From Desulfobacula sp. (lineage in GTDB: Bacteria; Desulfobacterota; Desulfobacteria; Desulfobacterales; Desulfobacteraceae): a stretch of 60,305 nucleotides of DNA. Below are positions 19,674 through 60,305 of this stretch, piece by piece. Below the pieces are notes generated by a model. It was not told the DNA's origin and searched no databases. It was given only the letters and a program-made list of their open reading frames with translations. Each line of letters starts with the position of its first letter. The stretch's first letter is position 1. Both the position numbers and the translations under genes were made by a program. The DNA lies in contig NZ_JABZFL010000029.1 in assembly GCF_014237455.1 (NCBI RefSeq), positions 1 to 60,305 on the forward strand. The letters run 5' to 3'.

Positions 19674-19857
19674 CATTCGGTTCCTCTTTGGCATGAAACC
19701 GAAGAAGAAAACGATCTTTGTTAAAAAGTAGACACTTTGTTACTCGTATGTATAATCAATAACGGTTTGTATTCAATCAGAAAATGTATCGGATAAAAAC
19801 CAGTATATTTTCAATGTTGGGCTTTCTTATCTTCTACCCAAACACAGGAGAATTATA

Positions 19858-21204
19858 ATGAACGAAAAAAAGAATTTTATTGTCATTGGATGCGGCGGGG
19901 CCGGCGGGCCGGCTGCTATTCTTACCAGCAACATAAATCCGGACGTTGATGTGACAGTGATAAGGGCGGAACCCAATTTCATTGTCAGATGAGCGCTTCC
20001 CCACGTTGTGGCCGGTCTGGCCACCAGTGACTCCATAGTTGCCCCGGATGCCATGCTGGAAAATGCAGGTATAACTGTTATCAAAGAGAGGGTGACAGGT
20101 GTTGACAGCAAGGAGAAAAATGTGACCCTGGAAGGGGGCAAGGTGCTTTCATTTGACAAGCTTCTCCTTGCCAACGGCGCTGACCCTGTCATACCTCCGC
20201 TGCCAGGCAAGGATCTCCAGGGTGTTTTCACATTACGAAGCACACCGGATGCCGAAGCAATGATACAGTTTATTGATGAGAGGAAGATAAACAGCCTTAC
20301 AGTGGTTGGGGCAGGCTTTATAGGTCTTGAGGTGGGCACCCTGCTGAAGCAGACCCATCCGGGTCTCAAGGTGACGGTGGTGGAACTTCTGGATCATCCC
20401 CTCCCGTATATGCTTGATGCCGATATGGCCTCAAAGGTTGCTTCTTATCTTGCAGAACAGGGAATCGAGCTGCACACAGGCGTCAGGGTTACGGGACTTT
20501 CCGGAAAAGATGGATATATAAACGGCGTTGAGCTTGATTCAGGCGATGTAACAGATTCGGATATGGTCCTTCTGTCAGTTGGGGCCAAAAGTAACTTTGA
20601 CCTTGCAAAGCAGGCCGGACTTGATATTGGAGAATTCGGCATAAAGGTAAACCAGTACATGGAGACATCTCACCCGGATATCTTTGCCGCAGGTGACAAT
20701 GTGGAAAACAAATGCCTTATTACCGGCAAAAATATACCCGGGCAACTCAGGGGTGCTGCAGTTTGTCAGGGACGTCTTGTTGCCAAACGGCTGAACGGCG
20801 CTGCCATCCCTTTTACAGGGCCGCTAAACAGCTCCTGTGTCAAGCTGTTTGATCTCTGTGCAGCAAGCGTTGGCCTTACAGAGAAGCTTGCCAAAAAACA
20901 TGGCATCAAGACAGCCTGTTTCACAGTTGACTCCCGCAGTAAGCATGGCATGATCAAGGGAATGAAGCCATGGACTCTGAAGGTGGTTTTCAACACGGAG
21001 AATAGAAAAGTTATAGGAAGCCAGATCGTGAGCATGAGCGAGTCCCCGGCAAAGGAGATTGATGTCATGAATTTGGCCATAAAAATGGGCGCAGTCCCTG
21101 AGGATCTTTTGACCATCAACTGTGCCGGACACCCGGATCTTTCTTCAGAACCCAGTTTGGAACCCATATCCATCATAGGGGTCCAGGCATCAGGAAAGAT
21201 TTGA
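19858..21204 (+). CDS. Selenocysteine-type FAD-dependent NAD(P)H disulfide/sulfur oxidoreductase (TGA read-through)
   Basis: If TGA 19990-19992 is read as selenocysteine, the gene gives a 448-residue protein with all parts of the CoA-disulfide reductase/NADH oxidase family. It has an FAD loop VIGCGGAGGPAA at residues 9-20, U45 in F-I-V-R-U-A-L-P-H, a second Rossmann loop VVGAGFIGLEVG near residue 150, FAAGDN near residue 280 and a C-terminal dimerisation domain ending with INCAGHPDLSSEPS. Family members use the Cys at position 42-43 as the redox centre, which is exactly where the TGA stands. AGGAG lies 7 bases before ATG 19858. A SECIS-like hairpin follows the TGA. A start after the TGA would lose the FAD site. 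Likely substrates are disulfides, persulfides, polysulfide or peroxide. Confidence 0.85.
19990..20024 (+). promoter_or_regulatory. UGA selenocysteine codon and SECIS-like stem-loop
   Basis: TGA 19990-19992 is followed by a 15-base spacer, then GTGGCC (20008-20013), the loop GGTCT (20014-20018) and GGCCAC (20019-20024): a perfect 6-bp stem. The loop GGUCU is the same as in the Escherichia coli fdhF SECIS, where the paired G-U of the loop is read by SelB. The distance from UGA to loop, 21 bases, is inside the range known for bacterial elements. Seen directly; function inferred. Confidence 0.75.
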
Positions 21205-21323: not shown

Positions 21324-22229
21324 ATGACAATCCAGTTTCTTGGGAAGACATTGAAAAACCCCATGGTTCTTGCTTCAGGGATTCTTGGGAACAGCAGGGA
21401 CATCCTTGAAAGAGTCCATGAAAACGGCTGCGGCCTTGTGACCATGAAATCCATCGGCCCTGAACCCAGGGACGGACATAAAAACCCCACGGTGATTGAT
21501 CTGGGTCACGGCATGATCAATGCCGTAGGACTGCCGTCTCCCGGGTATTTGAACATGGAAAATGAGTGGGAGGACCTTGAAAAAAGAGAGTTTCCCTTAA
21601 TTGCAAGCGTTTATGGCGGGTCTGTTAAAGAATACCGGATGGTGGCAGAATTTGTATCTTCCAAAAACCCGGATTTTATCGAAATTAATATTTCCTGTCC
21701 CAACTCTGAAAAGCATGGCATGATCTTCGGGATCAACCCGCAATCTTCCCATGATGTTGTGTCTGCTGTTAAAAAAGTCATCAATGTTCCGCTCATTGTA
21801 AAACTGACCCCCCAGGCCCCGGATATCGGTGACGTTGCCAGGGCCTGTGAAGATGCAGGGGCCGATGCCATCTGCGCCATCAACACGGTGGGCCCGGGAA
21901 TGGTGATTGATATTGAGTCCAAAATGCCGGTGCTGGCCTTTAAAAAAGGGGGGCTTTCCGGCCCCATGATAAAGCCTGTTGCCGTCCGGTGTGTGTTTGA
22001 TATTTATAAAGCAGTAAAAATTCCCATCATCGGGCTTGGCGGCATTACCACAGGAGAAGACGCCATTGAAATGATCATGGCAGGGGCAAGTCTTGCGGGC
22101 ATCGGAAGTGCTGTCCGGTACCGCGGGATTGATGTGTTTCAAAAAGTCACCCGGGAAATGGAAGCCTGGCTTTCAGATCATCATTACAGTCATGAAGATA
22201 TTATAGGAGCAGCCCATAAGGAAGGATGA
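21324..22229 (+). CDS. pyrD: Dihydroorotate dehydrogenase, class 1B catalytic subunit
   Basis: A 301-residue FMN barrel enzyme that oxidises dihydroorotate to orotate in UMP synthesis. It has L-K-N-P-M-V-L-A-S-G-I-L-G at the start, M-I-N-A-V-G-L-P-S-P-G near residue 65, I-S-C-P-N-S near residue 127 with the catalytic Cys of class 1B a few residues on, and G-L-G-G-I-T-T near residue 235. The next gene, pyrK, overlaps by 4 bases, the typical arrangement of the NAD+-linked PyrDK heterotetramer. Confidence 0.93.
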   Translation: MTIQFLGKTLKNPMVLASGILGNSRDILERVHENGCGLVTMKSIGPEPRDGHKNPTVIDLGHGMINAVGLPSPGYLNMENEWEDLEKREFPLIASVYGGSVKEYRMVAEFVSSKNPDFIEINISCPNSEKHGMIFGINPQSSHDVVSAVKKVINVPLIVKLTPQAPDIGDVARACEDAGADAICAINTVGPGMVIDIESKMPVLAFKKGGLSGPMIKPVAVRCVFDIYKAVKIPIIGLGGITTGEDAIEMIMAGASLAGIGSAVRYRGIDVFQKVTREMEAWLSDHHYSHEDIIGAAHKEG

Positions 22230-23041
22230 TGAAACCCATTACCGATCAAAGACATATCATGCTCAGGGTTGCGGAAAAACAGATTGAAAGCCAGGAGTTT
22301 GCCACCCTGTTTTTTAATTATGCCCTGCCCTTCAAACCCGGTCAGTTCATCATGGTCTGGATTCCGGATATTGATGAAAAACCCTATACCATTTCCTATC
22401 ATTCAAAAGACAGGTTTGCCATCACCATTGAGGCCAAAGGCATTTTCTCCCAAAAAGCCATTACCCTGGAAAAAGATGATCTGGTTGGCATCCGGGGGCC
22501 TTTTGGCAACGGGTTTAATATTAAATCAGACGATACGGTGGCAGTTGTTGCCGGTGGCTGCGGCATGGCGCCATTGGCCACATTGGTGGAAAAGCTTAAT
22601 AAAAATACAACTTTTATCCACGGGGCAAAATCCAAAGAATATATCTTATACCCGGACCGGTTTGACCTTGACCGACTCTTTTGCACGGATGACGGAAGTT
22701 TCGGCCGCAAAGGATTTGTCACAGAACTCCTGGAAAATGAAATTGCTTCAGGCAAAAGCTTTGACAGAGTCTATACCTGCGGGCCTGAAATCATGATGTA
22801 CCATATTTTCAACATCTGTGAGAAGCACCACATTCCCTGCCAGGTGTCTCTGGAACGCTACATGAGGTGCGGATTCGGAGTTTGCGGGGCCTGTGTCTGC
22901 GGCAAACAGGTGGTCTGCAAAGACGGCCCGGTCTTTGATTCTTCCGCCCTTCGTGGTATAAAAGACTTTAATACAAAAGCCCTGTTAAAATCCGGCAAAG
23001 ATGTCAATCTTGCCCAGTATTTTTCCTGGCGTTGTAAATAG
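22226..23041 (+). CDS. pyrK: Dihydroorotate dehydrogenase electron-transfer subunit
   Basis: A 271-residue FAD/2Fe-2S protein that passes electrons from PyrD to NAD+. The ferredoxin-reductase-like part has F-K-P-G-Q-F-I-M-V near residue 33 and the NAD-site T-C-G-P-E-I-M near residue 185. The C-terminal 2Fe-2S ligands are in M-R-C-G-F-G-V-C-G-A-C-V-C-G and V-C-K-D-G-P-V-F. The ATG at 22226 overlaps the pyrD stop (ATGATGA), which indicates translational coupling. Confidence 0.92.
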   Translation: MMKPITDQRHIMLRVAEKQIESQEFATLFFNYALPFKPGQFIMVWIPDIDEKPYTISYHSKDRFAITIEAKGIFSQKAITLEKDDLVGIRGPFGNGFNIKSDDTVAVVAGGCGMAPLATLVEKLNKNTTFIHGAKSKEYILYPDRFDLDRLFCTDDGSFGRKGFVTELLENEIASGKSFDRVYTCGPEIMMYHIFNICEKHHIPCQVSLERYMRCGFGVCGACVCGKQVVCKDGPVFDSSALRGIKDFNTKALLKSGKDVNLAQYFSWRCK

Positions 23042-23065
23042 ACATATTGTAAAGGATTGTTGTAA

Positions 23066-23734
23066 ATGACATACAAAGAAGAATTTATTGAATTTTTAAT
23101 TGACTGCAATGCCTTAAAATTTGGCAAGTTTGAATTAAAAAGCGGCAGGATTGCCCCTTACTTTATCAATACCGGCATGTTTGACACCGGCCTTAAAATT
23201 AAAAAACTCGGCACCTGTTATGCTAAAGCCATACAGGAACATTTCCCCGGCAACTTCGACGGAATCTACGGCCCTGCTTACAAAGGAATCCCCTTATGTA
23301 TCTGTGCAGCCCTGGCACTCTCTGACATGGGTATGGATAAAGGGTATGTATTCAATCGAAAAGAAGCCAAAACTTATGCTGACAAAAGCCTTGTTGTGGG
23401 CATGCCCCTGACATCCGAATCCAGACTGATCCTTGTGGACGATGTCATTACTTCCGGAAAAGCCATCAGGGAATCTCTTGAAGTCCTTAAGTCCTGTGAC
23501 AACCCGACGGTCACCGGTATTATCATCAGTGTCAACCGACAGGAAAAAGGAAAAACCGATAAAAATGCACTAAAGGAAGTTGAGGAAACCCTTGGCATTC
23601 CCATTCATTCCATTGTCACCATCACAGAAATTAAAAAATATCTTCACAATAAAAAAATAAATAACCGAGTTGTTCTGGATGATGGCATGCTTGCAAAAAT
23701 TGATACCTATCTTGAAGAATATGGTGCACCATAA
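23066..23734 (+). CDS. pyrE: Orotate phosphoribosyltransferase
   Basis: A 222-residue type I phosphoribosyltransferase making OMP from orotate and PRPP. It has the early F-E-L-K-S-G-R-I-A-P-Y-F-I-N-T-G, G-P-A-Y-K-G-I-P-L, Y-V-F-N-R-K-E-A-K and the PRPP loop R-L-I-L-V-D-D-V-I-T-S-G-K-A near residue 125. AAGGA precedes ATG 23066, 24 bases after pyrK. It is the third gene of the pyrDKE run; pyrB, pyrC and pyrF are not in the window. Confidence 0.95.
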   Translation: MTYKEEFIEFLIDCNALKFGKFELKSGRIAPYFINTGMFDTGLKIKKLGTCYAKAIQEHFPGNFDGIYGPAYKGIPLCICAALALSDMGMDKGYVFNRKEAKTYADKSLVVGMPLTSESRLILVDDVITSGKAIRESLEVLKSCDNPTVTGIIISVNRQEKGKTDKNALKEVEETLGIPIHSIVTITEIKKYLHNKKINNRVVLDDGMLAKIDTYLEEYGAP

Positions 23735-58978: not shown

Positions 58979-60305
58979 CTAAACTTTTGCAAGTTTTACA
59001 GCACAAACCTTGAGCTCCGGAATTTTGGCAATGGGATCATAAGCCGGATTGGTCAACTTATTGACCCTGGCCTCTTCAAAATGGAAAGGCATAAAAACCA
59101 CACCTTTTTTCACCCGGTCTGTGATGGTAATCCGTGTTTCAATTTCTCCTCTCCTGGAAGCCATTTTGATCTTATGGCCGTCACCGATATCAAGTGACTT
59201 TGCATCTTCAGGATGAATTTCAAGAAATCCTTCAGGCACTTCATTATCAAGAGCCTTGGAATTTCGGGTCATGGTACCGGTATGATAATGGGCATAAACG
59301 CGTCCGGTGGTCATCCAGAACGGATATTCATCATCCACCACTTCTGCCGGCGGTTTATATTCAATGGCGTGGAAAAGCCCCTTTCCCCGGGAAAACTTCC
59401 CATCCTTGTGAAGGAACGGGGTTCCCGGATGTTCAAGGGATGGGCATGGCCATTGAAGCCCCGGCCCTTCAATGCGTTCATAGGTGATCCCGGCATAAGA
59501 AGGGGTAAGTTCTGCAATTTCCTTGAATATGTCCTCAGGAGAATCATAGTTCATTTCATACCCGATACGGTTGGAAATATCCATAATAATCTGCCAGTCC
59601 TGCCGGGCGTCGCCAACGGGTTCAACAGCCTTTCTCACACGCGACACCCGTCTTTCCGTATTGACAAAGGTGCCGTCCTTTTCTGCAAAGGAAACCCCGG
59701 GCAGCACCACATGGGCAAGCTTAGCCGTCGGTGTGAGGAAAATATCCTGAACAATAAGGAGTTCTATCTTTTCAAGTGCTTTTACCACATGATCTGCATC
59801 CGGATCCGACACCACCGGGTTTTCACCCATGATCCAGAGCGCCTTAACCTCTTCCTTTTCAATGCCGTCCATTAACTCGGGAATGGTCAATCCGATGTTA
59901 GTCGGCAATTCATCCACGCCCCAGGCCTGGGCAAATTTTTTATTGTCAGGCCCGATGGTTACGGGCTGGTACCCTGTATAAAAATTGGGAAGCCCGCCCA
60001 TGTCGCAGGCGCCCTGCACATTATTCTGGCCTCTAAGAGGATTAACCCCGGTTCCGACTCTTCCGATATTTCCGGTCAGCATGGATAAATTGGCAAGGGA
60101 TTTTACATTGTCGACCCCGGTGGTATGCTGGGTTATACCCATGCAGTAAACAATAGAGGCCCTTTTGGCTTTGCCATATTCTTCAGCAAGGGCTTCGATA
60201 TCTTCTTGGGATACGCCGGTAATCTGTGAGGTTTTTTCAATACTGACGGTATCCATCTGTTTTTTAAATAGGTCAAACTCCTCTGTATTTTTTGCAATAA
60301 ATGTC
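58979..60305 (-). CDS. fdhA: Formate dehydrogenase catalytic subunit, C-terminal part (partial)
   Basis: The frame is open to the window edge and gives the last about 442 residues of a molybdopterin oxidoreductase of the formate dehydrogenase type: G-I-T-Q-H-T-T-G-V-D-N, N-P-L-R-G-Q-N-N-V-Q-G-A-C-D-M-G, W-I-M-G-E-N-P and a C-terminal MoCo-binding domain with T-G-R-V-Y-A-H-Y-H-T-G-T-M-T-R. It oxidises formate or reduces CO2 with a bis-MGD Mo or W centre. The 4Fe-4S and Sec/Cys active site are before the window start, so whether it carries selenocysteine is not visible. The FdhD gene follows. Confidence 0.93.
   Translation of the reverse strand, partial: TFIAKNTEEFDLFKKQMDTVSIEKTSQITGVSQEDIEALAEEYGKAKRASIVYCMGITQHTTGVDNVKSLANLSMLTGNIGRVGTGVNPLRGQNNVQGACDMGGLPNFYTGYQPVTIGPDNKKFAQAWGVDELPTNIGLTIPELMDGIEKEEVKALWIMGENPVVSDPDADHVVKALEKIELLIVQDIFLTPTAKLAHVVLPGVSFAEKDGTFVNTERRVSRVRKAVEPVGDARQDWQIIMDISNRIGYEMNYDSPEDIFKEIAELTPSYAGITYERIEGPGLQWPCPSLEHPGTPFLHKDGKFSRGKGLFHAIEYKPPAEVVDDEYPFWMTTGRVYAHYHTGTMTRNSKALDNEVPEGFLEIHPEDAKSLDIGDGHKIKMASRRGEIETRITITDRVKKGVVFMPFHFEEARVNKLTNPAYDPIAKIPELKVCAVKLAKV

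Follow-up and report, generated by a model that had tools for sequence, protein, structure and literature searches.

A flavoprotein reading frame with one internal TGA

The locus described here raises the question whether an in-frame TGA in a flavoprotein gene of Desulfobacula sp. is read as selenocysteine (Sec) and, if so, what kind of enzyme would result. The window, by which we mean the whole stretch of DNA that was analysed (60,305 nucleotides, contig NZ_JABZFL010000029.1), carries on its plus strand a frame of 448 codons that runs from an ATG at 19858 to a terminal TGA at 21202-21204. The first-pass annotation had described the gene as whole except for TGA 19990 at residue 45, and this is borne out: codon 45 (19990-19992) is the single internal TGA of the frame, whose translation places it in F-I-V-R-U-A-L-P-H. 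The features of this part of the gene are as follows.

19858..21204, + strand: gene for a pyridine nucleotide-disulphide oxidoreductase of 448 residues with predicted Sec at 45 and stop codon TGA 21202-21204 (translation, domain and structure-sequence matches)
19846..19851, + strand: Shine-Dalgarno-like AGGAGA preceding the ATG upstream of the TGA (sequence; string kept in relatives)
19888..19905, + strand: FAD-binding glycine-rich loop G11-C12-G13-G14-A15-G16 (lost if translation starts at 20008)
19990..19992, + strand: in-frame TGA, codon 45, the candidate Sec codon at the redox-active position (alignment, relatives)

The read-through protein contains a Pyr_redox_2 domain (173.1 bits) and a Pyr_redox_dim domain (53.9 bits). 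In the CoA-disulfide reductase/NADH oxidase family the redox-active cysteine is located near residue 43. Codon 45 aligns opposite the cysteine of the NADH oxidase NoxA-3 (6pfz) and of the CoA-disulfide reductases 3icr and 3cgb, in agreement with the earlier claim that the TGA occupies the redox-active residue of this family. A mechanical open reading frame call without read-through yields 20008-21204, with GTG 20008 as the start, just as had been expected of a routine annotation, and the FAD-binding loop is then missing. Gene calls that stop at the UGA drop the FAD-binding end of the enzyme in this manner, and the gene may therefore be misread in other genomes too. The window genome has one further, more distant paralogue, which is 30% identical and lacks the TGA.

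The TGA recurs in related genomes

A search of 389 genomes of the class (threshold E<=1e-90) matched 48 genomes at 49 places, 45 of which have exactly one TGA, so that the putative Sec form is common among relatives. At the level of the phylum 9 of 395 genomes were matched, five of them with the TGA. Pooling of both searches gave 54 distinct places including the window: 47 have the TGA, six have cysteine and one has a broken frame. All 47 TGA members read FIVR-U-(A/S)-L-P, and the 46 others are approximately 48-92% identical to the window protein. A looser search of 116 relatives (E<=1e-60) returned 19 places; the TGA is present in seven and absent from the other 12, of which nine are just 31-37% identical. 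Moreover, 13 of 80 loci on contigs of named genomes were read for the codon, and eight have the TGA; three of these eight fall outside the count of 47 (L123, L124 and L130, which are 84%, 71% and 48% identical, respectively). The complete chromosome of Desulfosarcina widdelii PP31 (NZ_AP021875) carries the TGA as well (L129). A sequencing error that turned TGC or TGT into TGA might be suspected in a window taken from a draft assembly of 113 contigs, but it is for all practical purposes excluded because the same TGA is present in 46 of the 53 other places, in assemblies that include the complete D. widdelii chromosome.

Homologues have either Cys or Sec opposite the TGA, as the alignment suggested by the first-pass annotation brought out. 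The near relatives of the Cys type with the motif FIVR-C-S-L-P (L105, L088 and L127) resemble the window protein over its full length, at about 48-52% identity. G042 (apparently Desulfobacterium autotrophicum HRM2), a genome of the window's family, carries L109 as the Sec form and L105 as the Cys form, with 56% identity between the two. With one active site available in Sec and in Cys versions across the superfamily, and in this one case within a single genome, the benefit of selenium to a flavin-dependent reductase could be tested directly. L127, from a bin labelled Acidobacteria, shares 52% of its residues with the window protein and groups near the CSLP forms from the order to which the window belongs, pointing to transfer or mis-binning.

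In the window's own genus the gene is patchy: few genomes have it, with the TGA in G000, G006 and G007 and a broken copy in G010. In this copy (L116) the TGA and the hairpin described below are kept, the frame is interrupted near the hairpin and the TGA is visible in another frame, suggesting either an assembly error or decay. The peptide patterns matched nothing among viral contigs, and among the matches listed for plasmids all were below 60% identity.

A conserved hairpin follows the TGA

The first-pass annotation had reported a 6-bp hairpin with the loop GGTCT, 15 bases past the TGA. This is what the window contains: the TGA is followed by 15 bases (19993-20007) and then, in this order, by three elements.

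20008..20013, + strand: 5' arm GTGGCC of the candidate SECIS hairpin (sequence, conservation, pairing)
20014..20018, + strand: apical loop GGTCT of the candidate SECIS (sequence, conservation, fdhF comparison)
20019..20024, + strand: 3' arm GGCCAC of the candidate SECIS hairpin (sequence, conservation, pairing)

The identity of the loop with that of the E. coli fdhF SECIS, which had also been claimed, holds: in fdhF, too, a short stem that follows the UGA carries the loop GGTCT. The two elements differ, however, in the distance from UGA to loop, which is 18 bases in fdhF and 21 here, and in their host protein. We scanned the window for TGAs, in any frame, that have 10-24 bases further on a perfect stem of 6 bp closed by a loop of 4-7 bases beginning with GG. 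Such a hairpin accompanies two of 1175 TGAs on the plus strand and two of 1347 on the minus strand.

Among 97 four-fold degenerate columns of the alignment the lowest synonymous entropies are those of codons 52, 51, 53 and 55; the hairpin contains these four of the 97 columns and no others. Their entropies are 0, 0.15, 0.15 and 0.66 bits, compared to a mean of 1.59 over all 97 columns; if ranks were random, these four columns would be the lowest once in 3.46 million cases (reckoned by hand). At the Val codon 50, which adjoins the hairpin, all four third bases are used. The hairpin pairs are formed in 99.3% of 270 cells, compared to 17-52% when the partners are slid by 1-3 columns. The hairpin is selected as RNA. 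Measured against what defines a SECIS, a hairpin just after the UGA that is under selection at the RNA level, it is conservation that speaks for the element. Covariation is weak because the arms hardly vary (the observed score was reached by 69 of 500 shuffles). The folding energy of the 45-base stretch is ordinary for its composition (z -0.70), and energy alone would therefore miss the hairpin that conservation reveals. The CSLP relatives L105 and L088, in contrast, have the Cys codon TGT and fold without this hairpin: the matching stretch of L105 (-15.4 kcal/mol, z -1.29) adopts a different shape of lower energy, and that of L088 has a z-score of 0.86.

The codons upstream of the TGA are translated

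Over codons 1-44, pN/pS ranges from 0 to 0.36 among 11 pairs of close relatives and is at most 0.14 in 10 of them, and codons 51-56 show zero or one synonymous change. The 44 codons before the TGA are translated and under selection at the protein level. All 47 TGA members, the window included, have a GGAG, GAGG or AGGA string within 18 bases upstream of the start assigned to them (for L117 the assigned start is an internal one). The gene has, as is characteristic of a selenoprotein gene, an in-frame UGA with coding sequence on both sides. That the TGA is a true stop, which would make the gene a pseudogene or restrict its product to the part starting at GTG 20008, would agree with the mechanical call of 20008-21204. 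It is nevertheless highly improbable: the TGA is kept in 47 of 54 places (window included), both the selected codons and the Shine-Dalgarno string lie upstream of it, and GTG 20008 falls within the stem of the hairpin.

The window genome encodes the machinery for selenocysteine

A check of the genome for selA, selB, selC and selD had been proposed in the first-pass annotation. All four are present above curated cut-offs: selC (tRNA-Sec) with 76.5 bits, selB with 346.1, selA with 596.9 and selD with 370.6. The selD gene has an in-frame TGA of its own, followed by a hairpin with the loop GGACG. In 14 control genomes the cut-offs were exceeded for selC in five, for selB in two, for selA in one and for selD in two; at low thresholds tRNA-Sec, SelB and SelD had matches in all 14 and SelA in four. 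Since five of the 14 controls pass the cut-off, a tRNA-Sec match alone is indecisive; the four genes together are decisive. Of the 47 TGA-bearing genomes, 43 have SelA above the cut-off, 38 have SelB at E<=1e-60 and 46 have at least one of the two (counted by hand from the tables). Correspondingly, in TGA-bearing drafts selA was not found in four of the 47 and selB not at this threshold in nine, and in G337, an 89%-complete draft with the TGA gene, neither was found. Of five genomes that have an intact Cys form only, four have SelA (G121, G074, G528 and G500; it is absent in G553), and the Cys form is thus no marker of a loss of selenium use.

The genome of L111 (apparently Desulfococcus oleovorans Hxd3) contains the TGA gene together with selA and selB above cut-offs. 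For Desulfococcus oleovorans Hxd3, 0 selenocysteine proteins are given in Table 1 of PMC2702500. As to FdhA, the only formate dehydrogenase gene covered by our check of the earlier claim, the C-terminal part of the alpha subunit is indeed present at 58979-60256, cut by the end of the window; a possible Sec site would lie outside the window.

The conserved TGA, the hairpin, the sel genes and the Cys homologues all support the earlier view of a probable selenoprotein. Judging from this sequence evidence, the gene almost certainly encodes one, with Sec at codon 45. With the hairpin 16-32 bases downstream as the signal, tRNA-Sec and SelB would decode UGA codon 45. According to the alignment, the resulting Sec would take the place of the redox-active Cys that adjoins the flavin in the relatives. 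Overall, the best explanation of the locus is a full-length FAD/NAD(P)H selenoflavoprotein with the chemistry proposed below, to which we assign a probability of about 0.9.

The UALP proteins form a lineage apart from other Sec forms

The selenoprotein idea has a precedent: in 2006 one NADH oxidase with Sec was counted, in Geobacter metallireducens (PMC1794560). One was also counted in the Global Ocean Sampling data (PMC2398784). In their accessible text, reviews of 2022 and 2026 list an FAD-dependent oxidoreductase (CoA-disulfide reductase, NADH oxidase) with WP_011365774.1 as the single accession (PMC9312934, PMC13188914), which we infer to be the Geobacter metallireducens protein. The 2022 review files such proteins under COG0446 (PMC9312934) and the 2026 review under TIGR03385, with the motif UGxP (PMC13188914). 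The UALP form was not found named in the accessible text, supplementary lists aside, of the selenoprotein literature searched (PMC13188914, PMC9312934, PMC1794560, PMC2398784, PMC12013277, PMC2702500, PMC5109826, PMC8318568, PMC5029168).

A TIGR03385 search over the 395 genomes of the phylum revealed at least 41 places with one TGA. Thirty-seven of these were fetched (L233-L269), and every one of the 37 has its TGA at the active-site position that it occupies in the window gene; the proteins are 26-32% identical to the window protein. The triplets after the TGA are GIP, ETP, SEP, DLP, PTP and others (UETP, USEP, UDLP, UGIP, UPTP), a variety broader than the lone UGxP form in the accessible text of the 2026 review (PMC13188914). 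Four of them from different tree groups (L257, L241, L236 and L240) were folded and gave hairpins of 7-10 pairs with a GG-starting loop 18-22 bases after the TGA, the z-scores of the stretches ranging from -0.48 to -4.11. Selenocysteine is widespread in the CoA-disulfide reductase superfamily of this phylum.

We masked the active-site residue and inferred a tree from 101 proteins. It took in 28 of the 47 TGA members (window included) and L123, L124 and L130, together 31 UALP proteins; the loci omitted are 14 of the 30 of the Cys type (L203-L232) together with L032, L036 and L039. In a starred group that stands apart from the rest, the 31 UALP proteins are joined by seven Cys relatives. At least five Sec/Cys changes at residue 45 are needed on this tree, which was obtained by a quick search method, contains long branches and does not distinguish gain from loss. 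The three CSLP Cys forms are placed inside the Sec group; still, a topology that unites the 31 UALP forms in a single clade is not rejected (p 0.627). A topology that does so for all 68 Sec forms of the tree, among which the exemplar WP_011365774.1 is not represented, is rejected (p-AU 1.65e-77). Judged by their sequences, the UALP proteins make up a Sec lineage of their own, of an already known kind and apart from the other Sec forms fetched.

These results bear on the possibility that the gene is a mere orthologue of the catalogued Sec CoA-disulfide reductase/NADH oxidase with the motif UGxP, and thus one more member of it. Superfamily and Sec position are identical, the position of Sec at the redox-active Cys being that of the other Sec forms fetched, and the reviews, in their accessible text, put such proteins in one family (TIGR03385 in PMC13188914, COG0446 in PMC9312934). 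D. widdelii, a carrier of the UALP form, has 38 in a row of the table of the deep-Sep paper that we read as known selenoprotein genes (PMC12013277, table), and the gene may be among them. However, all 47 members read UALP or USLP instead of UGxP, identity to the 37 other Sec forms is low, and the C-terminal active-site motifs differ. Moreover, the tree tests reject the common Sec clade and not the UALP clade, which is deep and separate (the exemplar sequence is outside this comparison). Finally, CoA-disulfide reductase TIGR03385 is the top NCBIfam model for the protein, with a score of 252.3 bits that is below its cut-off of 578.8, a weak test as 0 of the 395 genomes of the phylum reach that cut-off. 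Simple orthology with the catalogued family is improbable.

Active-site motifs and likely activity

Two C-terminal segments of the protein correspond to active-site motifs of its relatives.

20932..20961, + strand: residues 359-368, S-R-S-K-H-G-M-I-K-G, opposite Y-Y-P-G of CoA-disulfide reductase-like Cys relatives (alignment)
21124..21162, + strand: residues 423-435, A-G-H-P-D-L-S-S-E-P-S-L-E, opposite Y-A-P-P-Y-(S/G) of CoA-disulfide reductase-like Cys relatives (alignment)

In an alignment of four UALP rows with three CGLP rows, Y-Y-P-G and Y-A-P-P-Y of the Cys relatives are replaced by S-R-S-K-H-G-M-I and S-S-E-P-S. At least 46 of the 47 members share K362, H363, M365, E431 and P432. The flavin-binding loop has Cys12 in 43 of the 47 TGA members; three have Arg there and one has a gap. 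Among seven Cys-type relatives the same position is Cys in L115 and Thr in L119, L120 and L121, and the CSLP forms L105, L088 and L127 again differ from the window protein in having Gly. Besides Sec, the only columns in which Cys is the majority by a wide margin are Cys12 (43/47) and position 281 (45/47, Asn in the window). Cys12 is a candidate partner of Sec45 and may act as such.

The active-site tyrosines in Y-Y-P-G and A-P-P-Y have a role in S. aureus CoADR. The window protein has the redox residue near 43-45 and both the Pyr_redox_2 and the dimerisation domains of a CoA-disulfide reductase; the tyrosine motifs are missing, and the gene is therefore not filed as one. Of the assignment to the CoA-disulfide reductase/NADH oxidase family made in the first-pass annotation, the superfamily and the redox position stand, but the exact enzyme name is uncertain. 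The solved CoA-disulfide reductase, CoA-disulfide reductase-rhodanese and CoA-persulfide reductase (3cgb, 3icr, 8a56) share with the window protein the order of Pyr_redox_2 and Pyr_redox_dim and a redox residue followed by x-x-P. They have Cys where Sec is predicted here, and the window protein is unlike them in both replaced motifs and in its TIGR03385 score.

By analogy, the domain order together with the redox residue suggests chemistry of the CoA-disulfide reductase/NADH oxidase/NADH peroxidase type. In the superfamily, electrons pass from NAD(P)H to FAD, then to the active-site chalcogen and on to the substrate. In the proposed mechanism NAD(P)H would reduce the FAD, and the flavin would in turn reduce the oxidised selenium. 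The selenolate would then attack a small disulfide or persulfide to give a mixed selenenylsulfide that is resolved by the flavin. Tentatively, and at close to even odds, we predict an NAD(P)H-dependent reductase of a small (low-molecular-weight) disulfide or persulfide.

Gene neighbourhood and the choice of substrate

Across the 54 loci, many of which are on short contigs, there is no conserved operon that points to a substrate. Annotation of recurring neighbours was based on eight representatives, one per cluster, with cluster 0 (12 loci, the most frequent) and clusters 3 and 4 (seven loci each) outside. A second CoA-disulfide reductase-like gene recurs at nine loci (by sequence, and by a TIGR03385 match beside the gene in G123). 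Representatives above cut-off are MrpORP (six loci), thioredoxin (six loci) and an arsenic-efflux-like protein (three loci); below cut-off are a NifU-like protein (eight loci) and a weak TusD/DsrE-like match (four loci).

Alternatively, Sec might act as in an NADH peroxidase or oxidase, reducing peroxide (or oxygen) via a selenenic acid and without a disulfide substrate. The best sequence match of solved structure is the NADH oxidase NoxA-3 (6pfz; 221.5 bits with the single sequence, 302.5 with the profile), even though that protein has Cys and 551 residues and ours has predicted Sec and 448. NADH peroxidases align over residues 6-420, and the short list of conserved Cys columns given above (Cys12 and 281) fits this activity, too. 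Several of the annotated neighbour clusters, however, are genes of thiol, sulfur or Fe-S metabolism, and a peroxide-stress gene is not among the eight representatives (clusters 0, 3 and 4 outside). We regard a peroxidase or oxidase as rather unlikely and prefer the reductase of a small disulfide or persulfide.

A bolder reading goes further and is possible, if doubtful: the UALP clade may be a separate selenoenzyme class of sulfate reducers and their kin. It would have gained Sec independently of the UGxP forms and would have its own SECIS, a rebuilt active site (K362-H363-x-M365, S-S-E-P-S, Cys12) and a substrate other than CoA-disulfide, e.g., a persulfide or a metal-thiolate bound for sulfur-transfer or Fe-S proteins. 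In this phylum several further clades of the superfamily would have turned to Sec on their own.

A link to the selenocysteine-assisted organometal (Sao) system was considered and rejected, as no Sao model was matched when the eight neighbour proteins were compared with NCBIfam. In the window itself the gene follows one for a xylose isomerase-like barrel and precedes pyrD/pyrK-like genes, neighbours that give no hint of the substrate. The pyrD- and pyrK-like genes (21324-23734) follow directly on the same strand, and the same three downstream genes are found in G006 of the same genus (L071).
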